Virus record (IMG/VR): IMGVR_UViG_3300027852_000001
Span: 64,001 to 128,000 of that record
Length of the DNA: 64,000 bases
Origin: a virus
Reading direction: 5' to 3' (one strand)
Position numbers and translations under genes: made by a program. Under the pieces are notes generated by a model that was not told where the DNA came from, did not search any database, and saw only the letters and a list, made by a program, of their open reading frames with translations. Below, one piece after another: positions 1-29,448 of the stretch. Every line of letters starts with the position of its first letter. Position 1 is the first letter of the stretch.

Positions 1-96
1 CCACTCTTTCTTCCATGTTATAGGTACTGCCAGGACGGAATAATCGTCCCATATAATGTCAAGCGTCACTTGACGACAGAATGCCTATCGGTCCAC

Positions 97-111
97 GCCC
101 CCTTGGGGGAG
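97..111. repeat. GC-rich hairpin downstream of the leftmost gene
   Basis: An inverted repeat, CCCCC TT GGGGG with flanks, lies just beyond the stop of the minus-strand gene at 155-472. It could help end that transcript, but no T-tract follows on the minus strand. A second small palindrome, CGTCACTTGACG, lies at 64-75. The rest of 1-154 shows no supported gene. Confidence 0.35.
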
Positions 112-154
112 TAAAGAGGCGCGGTACGAGGGACACTCACACTGACGAAACGGT

Positions 155-472
155 TTAGACCTTGCCCACAGCGCTGAAAGCCTTCCGAGTCGCGCCGACG
201 GTCTGACCACGTCCGAGTAGCTTGGACGCAATGACTGCCGCGTTATCGGAACCGAACCCGAGACTAGCGTCGGGAGTATATCCCCCGCCGTTTTCGACCT
301 GGGCTTCAAGAGCCGCCCACGTATCGGACAATGCTGCCATAGCGTCATCCAACGTCTCATAAGCCGACGCGGCATCAACCATCCGCTTGTTCGCCTTATA
401 GGACTGAGCGTTCTTGACCAGATTCTCGGACCCGAAGACCACAGCGTTACTTACGGACTGACCCTGACTCAT
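155..472 (-). CDS. Small hypothetical protein (105 aa)
   Basis: The product is a 105-residue soluble protein, rich in Ala, Ser and Asn, with no family I recognise. The start is supported by GGGAG six bases before the ATG, in the context GGGAGATAACTATG. The GATAAC-ATG start context recurs in other genes of this left segment. A sigma70-like promoter lies about 230 bases upstream at 700-728, so the transcript would carry a long leader full of GTCCNATAA motifs. Codon use is more GC-balanced than in genes right of 3.9 kb. Function unknown. Confidence 0.7.
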   Translation of the reverse strand: MSQGQSVSNAVVFGSENLVKNAQSYKANKRMVDAASAYETLDDAMAALSDTWAALEAQVENGGGYTPDASLGFGSDNAAVIASKLLGRGQTVGATRKAFSAVGKV

Positions 473-497
473 AGTTATCTCCCTAGAGATTGAGCCC

Positions 498-1480
498 GTC
501 CCATAAGCTGGCGACTACACCGTCCCCAATTTATAGGACGGACAAGTAGTAAACCATTGCTTGAACTTCGTTTATTCGGACCACCATTGCGGAGGCCACT
601 TATTATCGGTGGTTCTGATAACCACGTCGGGTTGCCGATAACACAAATAACGTTTAATAGTCCGTTTTCTGTCCTATCGTTTCTTTCATCTTACATTATA
701 CTATAGCGGAAGTTATACAAGAGGTCAATTTATTATCCAGAATAAAAATCGTCGTTTTTGGGCTGGAATCGTCGATATTATACGCAAAACAACGTCCCGG
801 TTCGATAACACTCACGTCCCTTTTTGAATGGCTGATAATACCATCGTTTTTGGCTTATTCCCATAATATACCATTATTATACGGGTTAAACGCCGATATT
901 ATCGGAAAGTCCTATAGAATAGGTTATGCTAGTCCTATATTATTGATGGTTATCGGCAAAATGCGTCTGATAACCATGAAAAACGCGATATTATGCGACC
1001 ATAACAATAAAAAAAGATACCGATAACACAAAAACATGCTTATCGTAGGGAAAAACGCCGTTATTATCACACACAATAAACTGGTTATTGGCCAGGTCCT
1101 ATAAAAGCCACGGCTCTACGTCCAATAATATTCTTGGTCCGCGCCATGCCATGTCCGATAATTGCACGACAAGAAAAGGTCTGATAACAAATCCCCAACA
1201 TAGTCCCATAAGCGTTTGCCAGGAAGGCCCGATAATGTCCCTCTGTGCAAAGTCCTATAATTGCCCTTTGTCGTCATGCGTCCCATAATGTTCTGCTGGA
1301 TCTCGTTTCCGATAATATCCCGTTTTGTTGTACAGAAACCGATATTCGATATTATCAGAACAATCGTATAATAATGCTCATAAACGCACGCAAAGTAAAC
1401 AGTTATCGTTCCCGTCCTATAATCTCGCACGGCCCAAAGGCCCGATAATCTGGGCCAGGCCGGTCCTACTCAACGTCCGG
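498..1480 (+). repeat. Dense array of GTCCNATAA motifs (iteron-like)
   Basis: This stretch of nearly 1 kb holds no supported gene; it is filled with a degenerate 9-10 base motif, consensus GTCC-N-ATAAT/C, mostly on the plus strand. The clearest run has starts at 1096, 1120, 1153, 1179, 1203, 1227, 1252, 1280, 1307, 1337 and 1363, so spacing is 24-33 bases and mostly 24-28. Further copies lie at 498, 908, 931, 965, 1414 and 1440, with some inverted copies such as 531-539. Between 600 and 1080 the copies are more degenerate. The regular spacing suggests repeated binding of one protein; which one is unknown. Confidence 0.75.
700..728 (-). promoter_or_regulatory. Sigma70-like promoter for the 155-472 gene
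   Basis: On the minus strand a TTGACC -35 box (728-723) is followed by a 17-base spacer and a TATAGT -10 box (705-700). The spacing is ideal for host sigma70. Confidence 0.6.
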
Positions 1481-1630
1481 TAAGTCATTTTCTCCATAGT
1501 CCGAGAACTCGTCATATTCGCATGTCGGACAATACCGTTGGCCCGATAAGTATTGGAATCTTAGTCCGCATTTCGGGCAAACATCACATTCAGTATCAAT
1601 ACAATCTTCGTGGTCGAACTTCTCGTCCAT
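1466..1630 (-). CDS. Small zinc-ribbon protein (54 aa)
   Basis: This 54-residue acidic protein contains two CxxC knuckles, CPKCGLRF and CPTCEY, about 13 residues apart, the pattern of a zinc ribbon. The start codon follows GGAGCGATAAC, the start context typical of this left segment. It is the downstream neighbour of the basic 56-residue gene at 1648-1818 and probably shares its transcript. Small zinc ribbons are common in phage early regions, where several bind host proteins or nucleic acid; a specific role is not visible. Confidence 0.65.
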   Translation of the reverse strand: MDEKFDHEDCIDTECDVCPKCGLRFQYLSGQRYCPTCEYDEFSDYGENDLPDVE

Positions 1631-1647
1631 GTTATCGCTCCTCGTCG

Positions 1648-1818
1648 TTATCGGCAGGCTTCGGTCAAGTTTTCCTCTTGGGCTTCAATCGCCCGCCACT
1701 TCTTTTTTCGCCGATCCCAGGATTTCGCGTGCGCCACTACCTCTGCAAAACGTTTTCCCAGTTTAGCTTTGCGCCAGTCTTTAGCGGACCTTCGATCACA
1801 ATAGTACCCATGCTTCAT
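1648..1818 (-). CDS. Small basic protein (56 aa)
   Basis: The 56-residue product is rich in Lys and Arg (for example RRKKKWRAIEAQEE) and has an N-terminal segment with His, Tyr and Cys. GGAGACAACAAA precedes the ATG. It sits 21 bases downstream of the 1840-2235 gene in the same direction, consistent with one operon. Its charge suggests nucleic-acid binding, but no family is recognised. Confidence 0.6.
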   Translation of the reverse strand: MKHGYYCDRRSAKDWRKAKLGKRFAEVVAHAKSWDRRKKKWRAIEAQEENLTEACR

Positions 1819-1839
1819 TTTGTTGTCTCCGTCCGAGAA

Positions 1840-2235
1840 TTATTGACCAGCCGAACCGCAGGCATCGATCATACTTATCGGGCTCGCCTTGGCATTATCG
1901 GCGATAAGCCTAGGGTTGATAATCCCAACGTTATCGGCATCGTCTACACTTCCGAGAAGAACACGTCCGATATACCCGAAGTCTCTGACCAGCGCATTAC
2001 GTAGGGCTTTAACTGCTCGTTTCTCATTCGGACCCTGAGCACAGGCCCCATAATACGCGCTGTGGAAGGGGCTGATAACTCTCGCCCGGATCTGGTTTGC
2101 GGACGTTTTCTCAAACTGGAATTTAACGGTGCGCTTTGAATCCCTACTGAAACCGATCGCTCCGTCCGATACCGCTATCATGTTAGCGGCCTTTGCTTGA
2201 TCCTGCTTCTGTTTAATTCTTGTGGAAACTGCCAT
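1840..2235 (-). CDS. Hypothetical basic protein (131 aa)
   Basis: The product is 131 residues with a Lys/Gln-rich N-terminus. A strong GGGGAG lies before the ATG, and a near-perfect sigma70 promoter lies 46 bases upstream (2281-2309), making this the first gene of a transcript that continues through the two small genes at 1648-1818 and 1466-1630. Several GTCCGATAA-type motifs fall inside its coding sequence. Function unknown. Confidence 0.7.
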   Translation of the reverse strand: MAVSTRIKQKQDQAKAANMIAVSDGAIGFSRDSKRTVKFQFEKTSANQIRARVISPFHSAYYGACAQGPNEKRAVKALRNALVRDFGYIGRVLLGSVDDADNVGIINPRLIADNAKASPISMIDACGSAGQ

Positions 2236-2280
2236 AATTCTCCCCTTTGTCCGATAGTTATTCTCTTGTCCCTACAATAC

Positions 2281-2309
2281 AGTATAGAATACCTGCGCGG
2301 GATTGTCAA
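2281..2309 (-). promoter_or_regulatory. Strong sigma70-like promoter
   Basis: The minus strand shows a perfect TTGACA (2309-2304), a 17-base spacer and TATACT (2286-2281). This is the best consensus promoter in the window and implies transcription by unmodified host RNA polymerase, hence early expression of the genes from 2235 leftward. Confidence 0.8.
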
Positions 2310-2460
2310 AAGAAAAAACAAGAAATCTTACATACGATATTATTGTGAACATCCGATAAGTATACCCACTATGGCACACAGGGTAAACTATTATTGATAA
2401 CGACCGATAATCGCCCACGGCCCAAGGCCCTATAATTTTGTTGTGCCCGAACTCCGTTAG

Positions 2461-2793
2461 TTATCGGCCAGATCGGAGTCGTTGTTGTATACGTTCAAGC
2501 TGGGCTTTAGTGAGCTTCTTCCGATAACAGAATAGCCGATTGTTCGTACCATACCGATAACATGATAGATACCCTAGTCCGATAAGAGCAAGAGCTACCA
2601 GTAGTCCGATATACGGAAACAGGAAGTAAAGTAAGAACGAACCGGATACGTATGCTCCGATAAAACAGAACAGTAATACTTCAGATTGTGCGAAGATGAA
2701 CCAACCGTTGAATCTGTTCCGATAACTTCCATCGGCTTCTCTAGTGGCGATAACAACATCACCATAGTCCGCTTCGAGATCAAATGGTCCCAT
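2461..2793 (-). CDS. Small membrane protein (110 aa)
   Basis: The 110-residue protein has two adjacent hydrophobic segments, roughly residues 36-58 and 60-78, and a basic C-terminal tail, suggesting two membrane spans with a cytoplasmic tail. CGGAGAATATT precedes the ATG. It follows the 2806-3060 gene by 12 bases and is probably co-transcribed. No family recognised; a role at the host membrane early in infection is inference. Confidence 0.65.
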   Translation of the reverse strand: MGPFDLEADYGDVVIATREADGSYRNRFNGWFIFAQSEVLLFCFIGAYVSGSFLLYFLFPYIGLLVALALIGLGYLSCYRYGTNNRLFCYRKKLTKAQLERIQQRLRSGR

Positions 2794-2805
2794 AATATTC
2801 TCCGG

Positions 2806-3060
2806 TCAGATTAGTGGATGTCCGATAAAAGAAGCGTATTCTCGGAACCCTCCCAAACGTCTGATAATAGCCGTTCTGTCGAACGTCCGAGTATTGTTAG
2901 TTCCAGCTTCTCTGTATGTTATAACAACGTCACGTCCGATAGTAGCAAGGAGGCGTCCTAATGCTCGGTCTCTCCGATTATCGGTCTTGGCATGGAGTTG
3001 TCTAGTTATCGGATTCTCAGAGCCAGCCCCGATAACAACAGTGAACAGTCTAGCTTTCAT
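2806..3060 (-). CDS. Small basic hypothetical protein (84 aa)
   Basis: The product is 84 residues, Arg- and Thr-rich, with alternating hydrophobic and charged stretches. TTGGAGCATAGCT precedes the ATG. It is separated by only two bases from the upstream gene ending at 3063. The coding region holds several GTCCGATAA-like motifs in the same DNA orientation as in the intergenic array. Function unknown. Confidence 0.65.
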   Translation of the reverse strand: MKARLFTVVIGAGSENPITRQLHAKTDNRRDRALGRLLATIGRDVVITYREAGTNNTRTFDRTAIIRRLGGFREYASFIGHPLI

Positions 3061-3062
3061 AG

Positions 3063-3293
3063 CTATGCTCCAACCAAAAAAGAACTCCGGATGTAATCGA
3101 GGCAGTTATTGGACAACGGCCAGCGGGTAGGAACACATGGTTCATTATCGGAGTTACGGATAACCCGCTCAATATGAGCATTCTCGGACCGAGTTAGCCA
3201 CGTAAGAACGTCCGATAGAAAGATGTCCGGAACACACAAGTACTGAGGATACCCGTAGTCTGGTGTCCGATAAGAAACTAGAGTCTTCTTCAT
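3063..3293 (-). CDS. Small hypothetical protein (76 aa)
   Basis: I place the start at 3293 rather than further upstream because GGAGCGATAACT precedes this ATG. The 76-residue product begins MKKTLVSYRTPDYG and contains a short LTWLTRSENAH helix; no family is recognised. It belongs to the four-gene minus-strand run 3441-2461. Confidence 0.65.
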   Translation of the reverse strand: MKKTLVSYRTPDYGYPQYLCVPDIFLSDVLTWLTRSENAHIERVIRNSDNEPCVPTRWPLSNNCLDYIRSSFLVGA

Positions 3294-3327
3294 AGTTATC
3301 GCTCCAGTCGGGGGTTGCGTCCGATAC

Positions 3328-3441
3328 TTAGTTGCCAACCGAATTCAAGGCTGTCTGGACAACGTTCATCATGTCACAGAGGTTAGTAACCACGAAGCTA
3401 CCGATTGTTCCTGCGATTGCGATTGCGAAGATAACTTTCAT
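3328..3441 (-). CDS. Short hydrophobic peptide (37 aa)
   Basis: A 37-residue product begins MKVIFAIAIAGTIGSFVV, a single hydrophobic segment followed by a short polar tail. GAAAGGAAACGGACT precedes the ATG. It is the first gene behind the promoter at 3486-3514. It could be a small membrane peptide or a short secreted peptide. Confidence 0.55.
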   Translation of the reverse strand: MKVIFAIAIAGTIGSFVVTNLCDMMNVVQTALNSVGN

Positions 3442-3485
3442 AGTCCGTTTCCTTTCAGTTTGTCGTTCGTTCCCTAACCATATAC

Positions 3486-3514
3486 ATACTACGATTCGAA
3501 TCCGGAGATTGCAA
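3486..3514 (-). promoter_or_regulatory. Sigma70-like promoter
   Basis: The minus strand shows TTGCAA (3514-3509), a 17-base spacer and TAGTAT (3491-3486), about 45 bases upstream of the short gene at 3328-3441. The boxes match less well than at 2281-2309. Confidence 0.45.
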
Positions 3515-3546
3515 GAAAGAAAGAAAGAAAAAGAAAAGAATCTCTA

Positions 3547-3755
3547 GTCCGATAACAAGAGGGTAGGAGGTAGGTCTGATAACAAGCCTTGCTCGTCAAG
3601 CAAGATAGTCTGATAACAACAAGAGATCAAATAGTCTGATAACAAGATATAATGTTAGTCCGATAGCTTTCGATGGGTGGTAGTTAGATATAGGACCAGC
3701 TAGGGGGTAGTCCGGTAATATAAATGGTCCGATAATTTTGGGTTGGTCCGAAAAG
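3547..3755 (+). repeat. Second GTCCGATAAC array
   Basis: Direct copies start at 3547, 3574, 3608, 3634, 3658, 3710, 3727 and 3746 (GTCCGATAAC, GTCTGATAAC and variants). The steps 27, 34, 26, 24 and 52 again fit a period near 26. A purine tract of GAAA repeats lies just before it (3513-3539). From 3442 to 3944 I see no well-supported gene; this array, the purine tract and the hairpin at 3856-3873 account for the interval. The motif becomes rare right of about 3750. Confidence 0.7.
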
Positions 3756-3855
3756 CCGTGGGGGTCCACACTCATCCGGCTCAGTTTTCAAATCCCCTAC
3801 AAGTTTTCCAGAATCTTTATCCATACCTCCCGCCCCTTCTCCCTCCTCCCCATCC

Positions 3856-3873
3856 GAAGGGGTACACCCCTTC
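3856..3873. repeat. Perfect 8-bp hairpin at the composition boundary
   Basis: GAAGGGGT and ACCCCTTC are separated by two bases. Neither side has a T-tract, so terminator activity is uncertain. It lies near the switch from minus-strand to plus-strand genes and could separate converging or unrelated transcripts. Confidence 0.4.
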
Positions 3874-3944
3874 CTCAACGGCCTAATCAACAACATTATC
3901 AACCAGCAAAAATCGATAAAAAAAATCAGGAGTATAGAAATAAA

Positions 3945-4049
3945 ATGGGCTGCAGCACGTATACTAAGATAGCAGCTAAAGACTGCTCTCGTGGGCTTCG
4001 CACCTTATTAATGGAACAAGGAGATAAACAATGGTTGCGGTTTTTGTAG
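3945..4049 (+). CDS. Possible short protein (34 aa)
   Basis: A 34-codon frame starts with ATG ten bases after AGGAG and overlaps the next gene by 19 bases. The upstream extension of this frame is not protein-like. Evidence is limited to the ribosome-binding site and the overlap. Confidence 0.3.
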   Translation: MGCSTYTKIAAKDCSRGLRTLLMEQGDKQWLRFL

Positions 4050-5448: not shown

Positions 5449-6150
5449 ATGAACGACGCAAAACAAATAAAACTAAATGCCTTAGAAAAGCCGAGTTATT
5501 ATTTTGGTGATTATAAATCTGAATCATCTGATTGTACTTGCGATGCGAGAGAAGATGGTGATTATTGTCGTTGTTCAAAAGTTACTATGACAGAGGTCAC
5601 TAAAATATTTCGTAAAGAAATTGTTGCTGCTGTTATTCCAAAAGAAATCTATCCTACAATTTTTGGGTATTGTGTTGATCGTATATTGCAACTATGCGGT
5701 ATAATGCATAAATTAAATTGGGAGGTTAGTGTAGTAGGTGGGTACTACGGAGAAGAAACCGATGGGATAGTCTTTAATTGGGAAAAACTCGAAGCTATTA
5801 GGAAGCATATTTCAAAACTTAGTAGAATGAGTAAAACAAAGATGATGGAATATGTTTTACTGCAGGAGTATGGGTATTTGCTAGACGACATAGGGAATAG
5901 GAAATGGGAAGTCAAGGAAGTCGATTTGGCCGATATTCGAATTGGTAGGGCGGATTATTACGGACAGAAACTTTGGCAGGATATTGTTGAGGGATATGAA
6001 GATCATGAACTTCCGGTAATTGTGTGTCTCCGGAAGACAGAAAAAATAAATGATGAATTTAGAAGTGTTTATCGTGTAATTGATGGATATCACAGACTTA
6101 CTGCTGTGCCAGACAAAGACGGTAGAGTTATGGTGGTGTTTGCTAAGTAG
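5449..6150 (+). CDS. ParB-like domain protein (233 aa)
   Basis: The C-terminal third carries the ParB/Srx-like pattern: residues 160-190 contain QDIVEGYEDHELPVIVCLRK and the end contains YRVIDGYHRLTAV, matching the 'P-I-V' strand and 'DG-x-HR' motif of ParB N-terminal domains. Known members bind or hydrolyse nucleotides (CTP in ParB, ATP in relatives). The N-terminus has a Cys cluster (CTCDAREDGDYCRC) that may bind metal. No helix-turn-helix is evident, so plasmid-type partition is not implied. A 29-base stretch of its 5' end is duplicated at 6643-6671. Confidence 0.65.
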   Translation: MNDAKQIKLNALEKPSYYFGDYKSESSDCTCDAREDGDYCRCSKVTMTEVTKIFRKEIVAAVIPKEIYPTIFGYCVDRILQLCGIMHKLNWEVSVVGGYYGEETDGIVFNWEKLEAIRKHISKLSRMSKTKMMEYVLLQEYGYLLDDIGNRKWEVKEVDLADIRIGRADYYGQKLWQDIVEGYEDHELPVIVCLRKTEKINDEFRSVYRVIDGYHRLTAVPDKDGRVMVVFAK

Positions 6151-28742: not shown

Positions 28743-28907
28743 GTGGATAATAAAAAAATAAAGATTAATTGTAGTTTAACACCAAGTGGAACGCCTGCTG
28801 TTGACGAGAGTGTTGCAAATGATATGAGTGTTTCAGATCCGGAAACTTCTGTGGGAATGAGAATAATAGATGACGCGATGAGCGGAGATGTTGATAAAAA
28901 TGACTAA
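28743..28907 (+). CDS. Small acidic protein before the sigma-like gene (54 aa)
   Basis: A GTG start follows GCGAGGTGATATAA. The 54-residue product is polar and acidic (SVANDMSVSDPETSVGMRIIDD) and overlaps the sigma-like gene by eight bases. As first gene behind a late promoter it may modulate the sigma-like protein; this is inference. Confidence 0.55.
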   Translation: MDNKKIKINCSLTPSGTPAVDESVANDMSVSDPETSVGMRIIDDAMSGDVDKND

Positions 28908-29448
28908 TGAAGAAATCTATTCAAGTGCGTATCCGATTATAGAGAGGTTGGCTAATATAAGAAGTGTCAACGGATCTTTTGCATACTACGAGTCTTCGGA
29001 TGTTTACCAGGAAGTTTGGTCTATGTGTTTGGAAGCACTTGATAGATATAACCCAGAAATAGGACCAATAGAAAATTTTCTAGTTAGACATGTAGCAAAT
29101 AGAATGAAAAACTTAAAAAGAGATAGATATTTTCGTCCAGGATTTGATATTTCTAGTTCTGGATTAGCAAAAACAAAAATGAATTTAGTTAACGCATTGC
29201 CATTTGGTTCTTGTGAAACAGTTGATAGTGGTACTTTATTGGGGTCTCAGGCGATAAATGTTGATCCTACACACAACCTATTGTGCCAAGAGACTATAAA
29301 ATACATAACAGATAGACTTCCAGAAGAATTACTGCCATCCTTTCAGGATTTGCTAGGGAATAATAGAGTTAGGAGTCCTTTGGTGTCTGAAATACAACAC
29401 ACTGTTGCTGAAATATTATCAGAAAGAGACAAAGATGGCAAAAAGTAA
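28900..29448 (+). CDS. Sigma-factor-like protein (182 aa)
   Basis: Residues 30-75 (SSDVYQEVWSMCLEALDRYNPEIG, then FLVRHVANRMKNLKRDRYFRPG) match sigma70 region 2 as found in small phage sigma-like proteins: the 'D-x-x-Q-E-x-W' helix, the 'F-x-P/N-x-x-G' turn and the basic -10 recognition helix. The C-terminal 80 residues have a weaker helical part that may be region 4. It probably directs RNA polymerase to late promoters. Starts at 28888 or 28900 are both possible; spacing from GGAG favours 28900. Confidence 0.7.
   Translation: MTNEEIYSSAYPIIERLANIRSVNGSFAYYESSDVYQEVWSMCLEALDRYNPEIGPIENFLVRHVANRMKNLKRDRYFRPGFDISSSGLAKTKMNLVNALPFGSCETVDSGTLLGSQAINVDPTHNLLCQETIKYITDRLPEELLPSFQDLLGNNRVRSPLVSEIQHTVAEILSERDKDGKK

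Follow-up and report, generated by a model that had tools for sequence, protein, structure and literature searches.

The locus

The site array described here lies in a 168,090-base IMG/VR virus record, of which bases 64001-128000 were analysed as one stretch of 64,000 bases, hereafter the window, whose numbering is used below unless stated otherwise. Because a 127-base direct overlap joins both ends of the record, the 168 kb sequence is treated as a circular assembly; the record of the relative G008 ends likewise, and both G000 and G008 are circular assemblies. The left arm encodes DNA polymerase III alpha, a DnaB-type helicase, a primase, an SSB, a RecA-like protein and a XerC-like recombinase, and terminase and portal are encoded on the right arm. 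The phage is large and uncultured; DNA similarity searches against cultured phages found no close cultured relative, with TerL resembling cultured phages only distantly and the island and the portal having no match, and relatives of the portal are encoded at 62 IMG/VR loci. The features of the island are as follows.

155-472, minus strand: 105-aa conserved gene; AF2 model confident and entirely helical, with a conserved C-terminus that resembles an HTH by eye
475-1465, no strand: noncoding control region (990 bases) upstream of the 105-aa gene; DNA kept among relatives, about 61-64% over alignable stretches
498-3754, no single strand: array of SGTCCGATAAY-type sites, about 58 on the plus and up to 27 on the minus strand at a PWM score > 8, a loose threshold on the minus strand
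700-728, minus strand: sigma70-like leftward promoter TTGACC-17-TATAGT with sites upstream; conserved in the majority of nine relatives that were aligned
1096-1315, plus strand: most regular stretch of the array, nine same-strand sites at spacings of 24, 33, 26, 24, 24, 25, 28 and 27
1466-1630, minus strand: 54-aa zinc-ribbon-like ORF with RBS, inside the array
1648-1818, minus strand: 56-aa ORF with RBS, inside the array
1840-2235, minus strand: 131-aa conserved gene; alpha-beta3-alpha, dsRBD-like topology in AF2
2281-2309, minus strand: sigma70-like leftward promoter TTGACA-17-TATACT before the 131-aa gene
2461-2793, minus strand: gene for a 110-aa probable membrane protein, overlaid by sites
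2806-3060, minus strand: 84-aa ORF, overlaid by sites
3063-3293, minus strand: 76-aa conserved ORF, overlaid by sites
3547-3754, plus strand: right-hand site cluster in a divergent intergenic region, where GC skew turns from negative to positive
3866-4003, plus strand: conserved start of the rightward arm (TATACTAAGATAGCAGC), probably the promoter of that arm

A dyad near the 105-aa gene is also conserved among relatives. To the left of this gene lies a noncoding block of about 1.5 kb (genome 62.6-64.15 kb; window -1400 to 155; L009 6600-8155), which aligns to G008 at 68% identity across 727 bp (window -328 to 388), has minus-strand features of a large structured RNA and is a candidate for a new phage noncoding RNA; Rfam gave no match in the island and none at E <= 1 in this adjacent block.

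A dense site array with half-turn spacing

The pooled position weight matrix (PWM) of the array reads [AT][AT]SGTCCGATAAY, an asymmetric motif with about 12 informative positions, and among 354 phage sites no position beyond the core of about 12 bp is strongly conserved. Between positions -100 and 3754, roughly 60 copies lie on the plus strand and fewer on the minus strand, the strand bias in the window's family being roughly 3:1. The original prediction had placed copies of a nine-base motif at nine positions, spaced 24-28 bases apart, in a gene-free stretch from 498 to 1480. All nine positions do carry the motif, six as exact copies of GTCCNATAA (1096, 1120, 1153, 1203, 1252 and 1280) and three with one mismatch (GTCTGATAA at 1179, GCCCGATAA at 1227 and TTCCGATAA at 1307), and seven of the eight intervals between them fall in the predicted range, the exception being one of 33. 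The array does occupy 498-1480, but reaches to about 3754 and continues about 100 bp to the left of the window start; in the same way, the sequence is noncoding from 475 to 1465, but beyond 1465 the array overlies leftward genes that look real.

Density and spacing both depart strongly from chance. Exact copies in positions 1-3760 number 14 on the plus and 3 on the minus strand, as compared to 0.12 and 0.07 on average in 1000 dinucleotide shuffles, while the remaining 60 kb of the window hold 2 and the rest of the genome is at background, such that the dense array is confined to this island across the whole 168 kb record. Successive plus-strand spacings of 23-28 occur 14 times, with 2.0 expected under random placement, a count never reached in 5000 trials. 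The sites cover genes and intergenic DNA alike, where transcription splits into two divergent arms and GC skew changes sign, and they occupy several reading frames, hence the recurring peptides LSD and VIG that can be read from the translations of these genes; as sites cross coding sequence in several frames, selection acts on the DNA.

When relatives are pooled, the spacing between same-strand neighbours peaks at 24-27 bp, with lesser peaks near 15-19 and 33-37 bp. The phase of same-strand pairs modulo 10.5 is 4.7 and 4.8 bp in the window's family and in unrelated phages (p < 0.0005 and p = 0.02, respectively), and convergent pairs are separated by near-integer helical turns. PWM, spacing peak and helical phase thus bear out the predicted half-turn geometry, and a helically phased protein-binding array is well supported from these sequence patterns; the asymmetry of the motif further points to a monomer-type binder.

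Conservation of the array in the phage family

All 15 relatives with a record that extends to the syntenic position (12 long records plus G016, G017 and G018) carry an array, about 25-32 kb upstream of the portal, and a single PWM fits the arrays pooled across the family. In the distant relative G011 (portal about 34-36%), no analogous array was found in the 76 kb sampled. Two family members show local variation: one contig (G007; L087) ends in nearly perfect tandem copies of the motif with a 23-bp period (positions 1-199), as if tandem duplication expands the array, and in another (G004; L081, array coordinates 1385-1918) a 177-aa gene, HNH-endonuclease-like by eye, is located within the array.

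Position of the array relative to a possible replication origin

The location of the array raises the alternative that the sites are iterons for a phage-encoded initiator, with the island as the start of bidirectional replication. At the right edge of the array, GC skew changes sign together with gene direction, and the opposite switch is roughly antipodal in G000, G008 and G005. Since gene direction switches at the same points as the skew, four-fold degenerate sites were compared, and here the coding-strand GC skew of head-on genes was below that of co-directional genes in all four genomes; with head-on genes few and some opposite frames perhaps spurious, this signal is suggestive only. In addition, skew also tracks gene strand, and G004 has one arm of about 102 kb and another of about 80 kb.

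Iteron origins, such as those bound by plasmid Rep proteins or lambda O, are characterized by tandem direct repeats (about 17-26 bp) at about 2-2.5 helical turns. The array resembles such origins in its direct-repeat spacing (a peak at 24-27 bp, within the iteron range, mostly on the same strand, albeit irregular and with some inverted copies), in its overlay on coding sequence, which iterons can also show, and in its location at a skew switch. By contrast, its 60-80 sites over 4 kb far exceed the copy number of typical iteron origins, no DnaA, Rep_3 or similar initiator is found among the Pfam and PHROGs matches listed, and the motif also occurs as a dispersed upstream site in bacterial genomes (see below). 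The DnaA-box consensus TTATNCACA does not fit either, the reverse complement of the motif, TTATNGGAC, agreeing with it only at TTATN. The predicted role as an origin retains the coincidence with the skew switch but lacks an initiator among these matches, and we consider it unlikely; were it correct, an unusually large iteron-type origin would be common to a whole uncultured phage family.

Arrays in unrelated phages

A pattern of two sites at an iteron-like distance was used to scan 2.9 million viral contigs and returned 101 stretches, as compared to 47 for the reversed-pattern control. As many of the reversed-pattern loci are apparently tandem repeats, counted sites were required to have distinct flanks; at least 8 such sites per 2 kb were present at 27 of the 101 real loci versus 0 of the 47 reversed-pattern loci, with about half of these 27 dense loci belonging to the window's own family. 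The arrays of unrelated phages have the same core, the same Y at +9 and the same spacing rule as those of the window's family. Judged by TerL, one set of these phages is YuA-like siphophages (53-55%) and another is T7-like podophages (34%). No array was found in the 27 kb read of the cultured YuA-like phage SN1, or in either of two YuA-like elements in genomes of the enriched Planctomycetota class described below.

No gene beside the unrelated arrays is shared with the window's family, and the 105-aa and 131-aa genes are absent there. Since site and spacing rule are thus shared without a shared neighbouring gene, the comparison suggests a host-supplied binder, with a phage gene located elsewhere in the genome as a further possibility. 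The 105-aa protein was rejected as a universal binder on the basis of its absence beside these arrays, and the 131-aa protein was set aside as a binder candidate, its dsRBD-like model having no significant fold match.

These findings bear directly on the possibility that lytic transcription is controlled by a phage-encoded repressor, e.g., the 105-aa HTH-like protein, bound to stoperator-like sites in the phage early region. Such a repressor would be consistent with the asymmetric site, with sites on either side of both leftward promoters (700-728 and 2281-2309) and with the position of the 105-aa gene in the array, as well as with the presence of an array at 11 of the 11 viral loci recovered in a search for relatives of this gene. 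The same array in unrelated phages that have neither the 105-aa nor the 131-aa gene argues against it, as do the restriction of sites to one island, within genes, and an AF2 model of the 105-aa protein that has no structural match in the PDB. In cluster A mycobacteriophages, stoperators are likewise asymmetric sites in many copies and are bound by a monomeric immunity repressor (PMC9283540, PMC6550527), a mode of binding that we propose here as well; however, stoperators are spread genome-wide and served by a phage-encoded protein, whereas the present sites form one 4 kb island, often lie in genes and are also dispersed in bacterial chromosomes. The repeated elements of SPbeta (SPBRE), bound by the phage-encoded master repressor MrpR (PMC10516654), provide a second parallel as operator-like elements that are repeated in a large phage and act at the DNA level; MrpR is, however, an established binder of its elements, whereas the present motif is common to unrelated phages and its binder is putative. 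While the 105-aa protein is still a candidate for a stoperator-type repressor, we regard control by a phage-encoded repressor as rather improbable.

The motif in bacterial genomes

Bacterial genomes were sampled from two phyla. None of 369 genomes from the class of a Nitrosospira MAG contained the two-site pattern. In the phylum of a Gemmataceae MAG, from whose title the label Planctomycetota is taken, 5 of 392 genomes contained it, at six places in total. Three of these five genomes carry 50, 50 and 46 dispersed copies of SGTCCGATAA, as compared to 3, 0 and 1 copies of the reversed word. With enrichment defined as 20 or more copies and a count no lower than 4 times that of the reversed-word control, 30 of 150 genomes in one Planctomycetota class are enriched; by contrast, none of 80 Pseudomonadota genomes (the phylum of Nitrosospira) are, the word being generally rarer than its control there.

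Most of the 42 bacterial sites inspected lie between genes, in both orientations, at variable distance and often antisense to the gene, and about 17 are inside a long open frame, some of these frames being probably spurious. Sites were found at the fliA/flhG region, flagellin, flgE (inside the gene), a pilin and a PilZ protein, these gene names representing our own reading of protein sequences rather than database matches. The fliA/flhG region, flagellin, a gene for a 1033-aa coiled-coil protein and a glucan phosphorylase-like gene are preceded by sites in 2-4 genomes each. The large coiled-coil gene (G671, G567, G619 and G862; L254-L256 and L307; 1033 aa in G567) has three conserved upstream sites and adjoins a ThuA-like gene. 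Overall, the bacterial motif has the appearance of a binding site for a transcriptional regulator. At +9, C or T is preferred in phage sites, with no clear such preference in the dispersed bacterial sites.

The -10 element of FliA (sigma28) promoters is GCCGATAA. The close match of CCGATAA to this word, together with bacterial sites near flagellar genes, might suggest that the array is a promoter or sigma-factor decoy, and the original prediction had raised the possibility that it titrates RNA polymerase. This possibility is unsupported, as nothing is conserved past about 12 bp and no TAAA-type -35 or other conserved partner accompanies the sites: across 354 phage and 46 bacterial sites no position outside the core is strongly conserved, as a fixed-distance -35 of sigma28 or sigma70 would be, and the bacterial sites also vary in distance and orientation and are often antisense. 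A promoter-array reading was thus rejected, and a decoy for sigma factors appears very improbable.

A centromere or partition array, with parC/parS-type repeats for low-copy maintenance of a plasmid-like phage, would account for tandem same-strand sites with phased spacing, and the phage does encode a XerC-like recombinase. However, a ParA-, ParM- or TubZ-type segregation gene was not seen near the array, the bacterial chromosomal motif is dispersed rather than clustered, and T7-like phages, which are usually not maintained as plasmids, also carry arrays; we thus judge this function to be highly unlikely. Among the roles proposed initially, repeated operators fit best, albeit with evidence that favours a host-type regulator site over a phage one, and packaging or partition gained no positive evidence.

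A host-encoded regulator as the putative binder

The reading that we favour, to which we assign slightly less than an even chance, is that the array is a platform for a host-encoded regulator and is used to titrate or recruit this host protein. We infer the host from the motif enrichment only, and one common binder and its titration or recruitment are inferred with it. About 60-80 monomer-type SGTCCGATAA sites would be laid over the early divergent control region, and their binder would most likely be a global regulator of certain Planctomycetota, with about 50 dispersed chromosomal copies of its site. The spacing rule suggests that the array may be filled cooperatively, by which the regulator would be titrated off host promoters, recruited to the phage early region, or both. 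Replication of the phage alone would allow phage sites to outnumber host sites (60-80 per phage genome versus about 50 per chromosome); with the regulator titrated, motility and other host programmes would be perturbed, its recruitment would favour early transcription, and the same array could double as an origin. The phage's own early promoters look sigma70-like, which counts against a host regulator in this role, as do the two YuA-like elements without an array, the differing preference at +9 and the bacterial sites inside open frames.

As pure titration needs neither helical phasing nor a strand bias of about 3:1, the array suggests a more specific nucleoprotein structure than a pure sponge. 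A broader proposal, which we put forward more tentatively, is that unrelated phages of uncultured Planctomycetota may have convergently built arrays of the site of one host master regulator (of motility, pili and more) as an early-infection DNA sponge or assembly platform. The present array resembles the DnaA-titrating locus datA and the decoy binding sites treated in theory (PMC7505660) as a site cluster that could sequester a host regulator; it differs in being phage-borne, much larger and recurrent in unrelated phages, and in that titration is here a proposal. A literature search for the motif string gave unrelated matches only. An unstudied regulator, Wcw_1223, reportedly has > 100 putative sites in a chlamydia and is also encoded in Planctomycetes (PMC4989314), and it is a lead only.

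If a host regulator does bind the array, the carriage of many of its sites in the early region would represent a strategy that recurs in unrelated phages, the motif would supply a sequence handle for host assignment of uncultured phages, and an undescribed global regulon would come to light in Planctomycetota, a group in which little is known of regulators. The function can also be tested, as the motif could serve directly as bait for the host protein.

Additional features of the phage genomes

Heimdallarchaeota were considered and rejected as a host. A contig of the window's phage family lies between 100-N gaps in CP070695 ("Heimdallarchaeota bin6 chromosome", about 45-94 kb; L104-L106), and this "chromosome" consists of scaffolds joined by 100-N gaps; the phage contig was probably mis-binned, and its presence in this archaeal MAG is probable contamination. 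Positions 5449-6150 (plus strand) encode a protein of 233 aa that contains a ParB-like "VIDGYHRLTA" motif, may account for the GmrSD_N match and is without counterpart in the relatives examined. The left arm of G000 (alignment A2) encodes a BrxL-like ATPase (Pfam, 6.8e-106), a phage-encoded BREX defence component. Finally, a 182-aa protein encoded directly before the terminase genes (28900-29448, plus strand) is the probable source of a sigma-70 region 2 match and represents a possible late-gene sigma factor.
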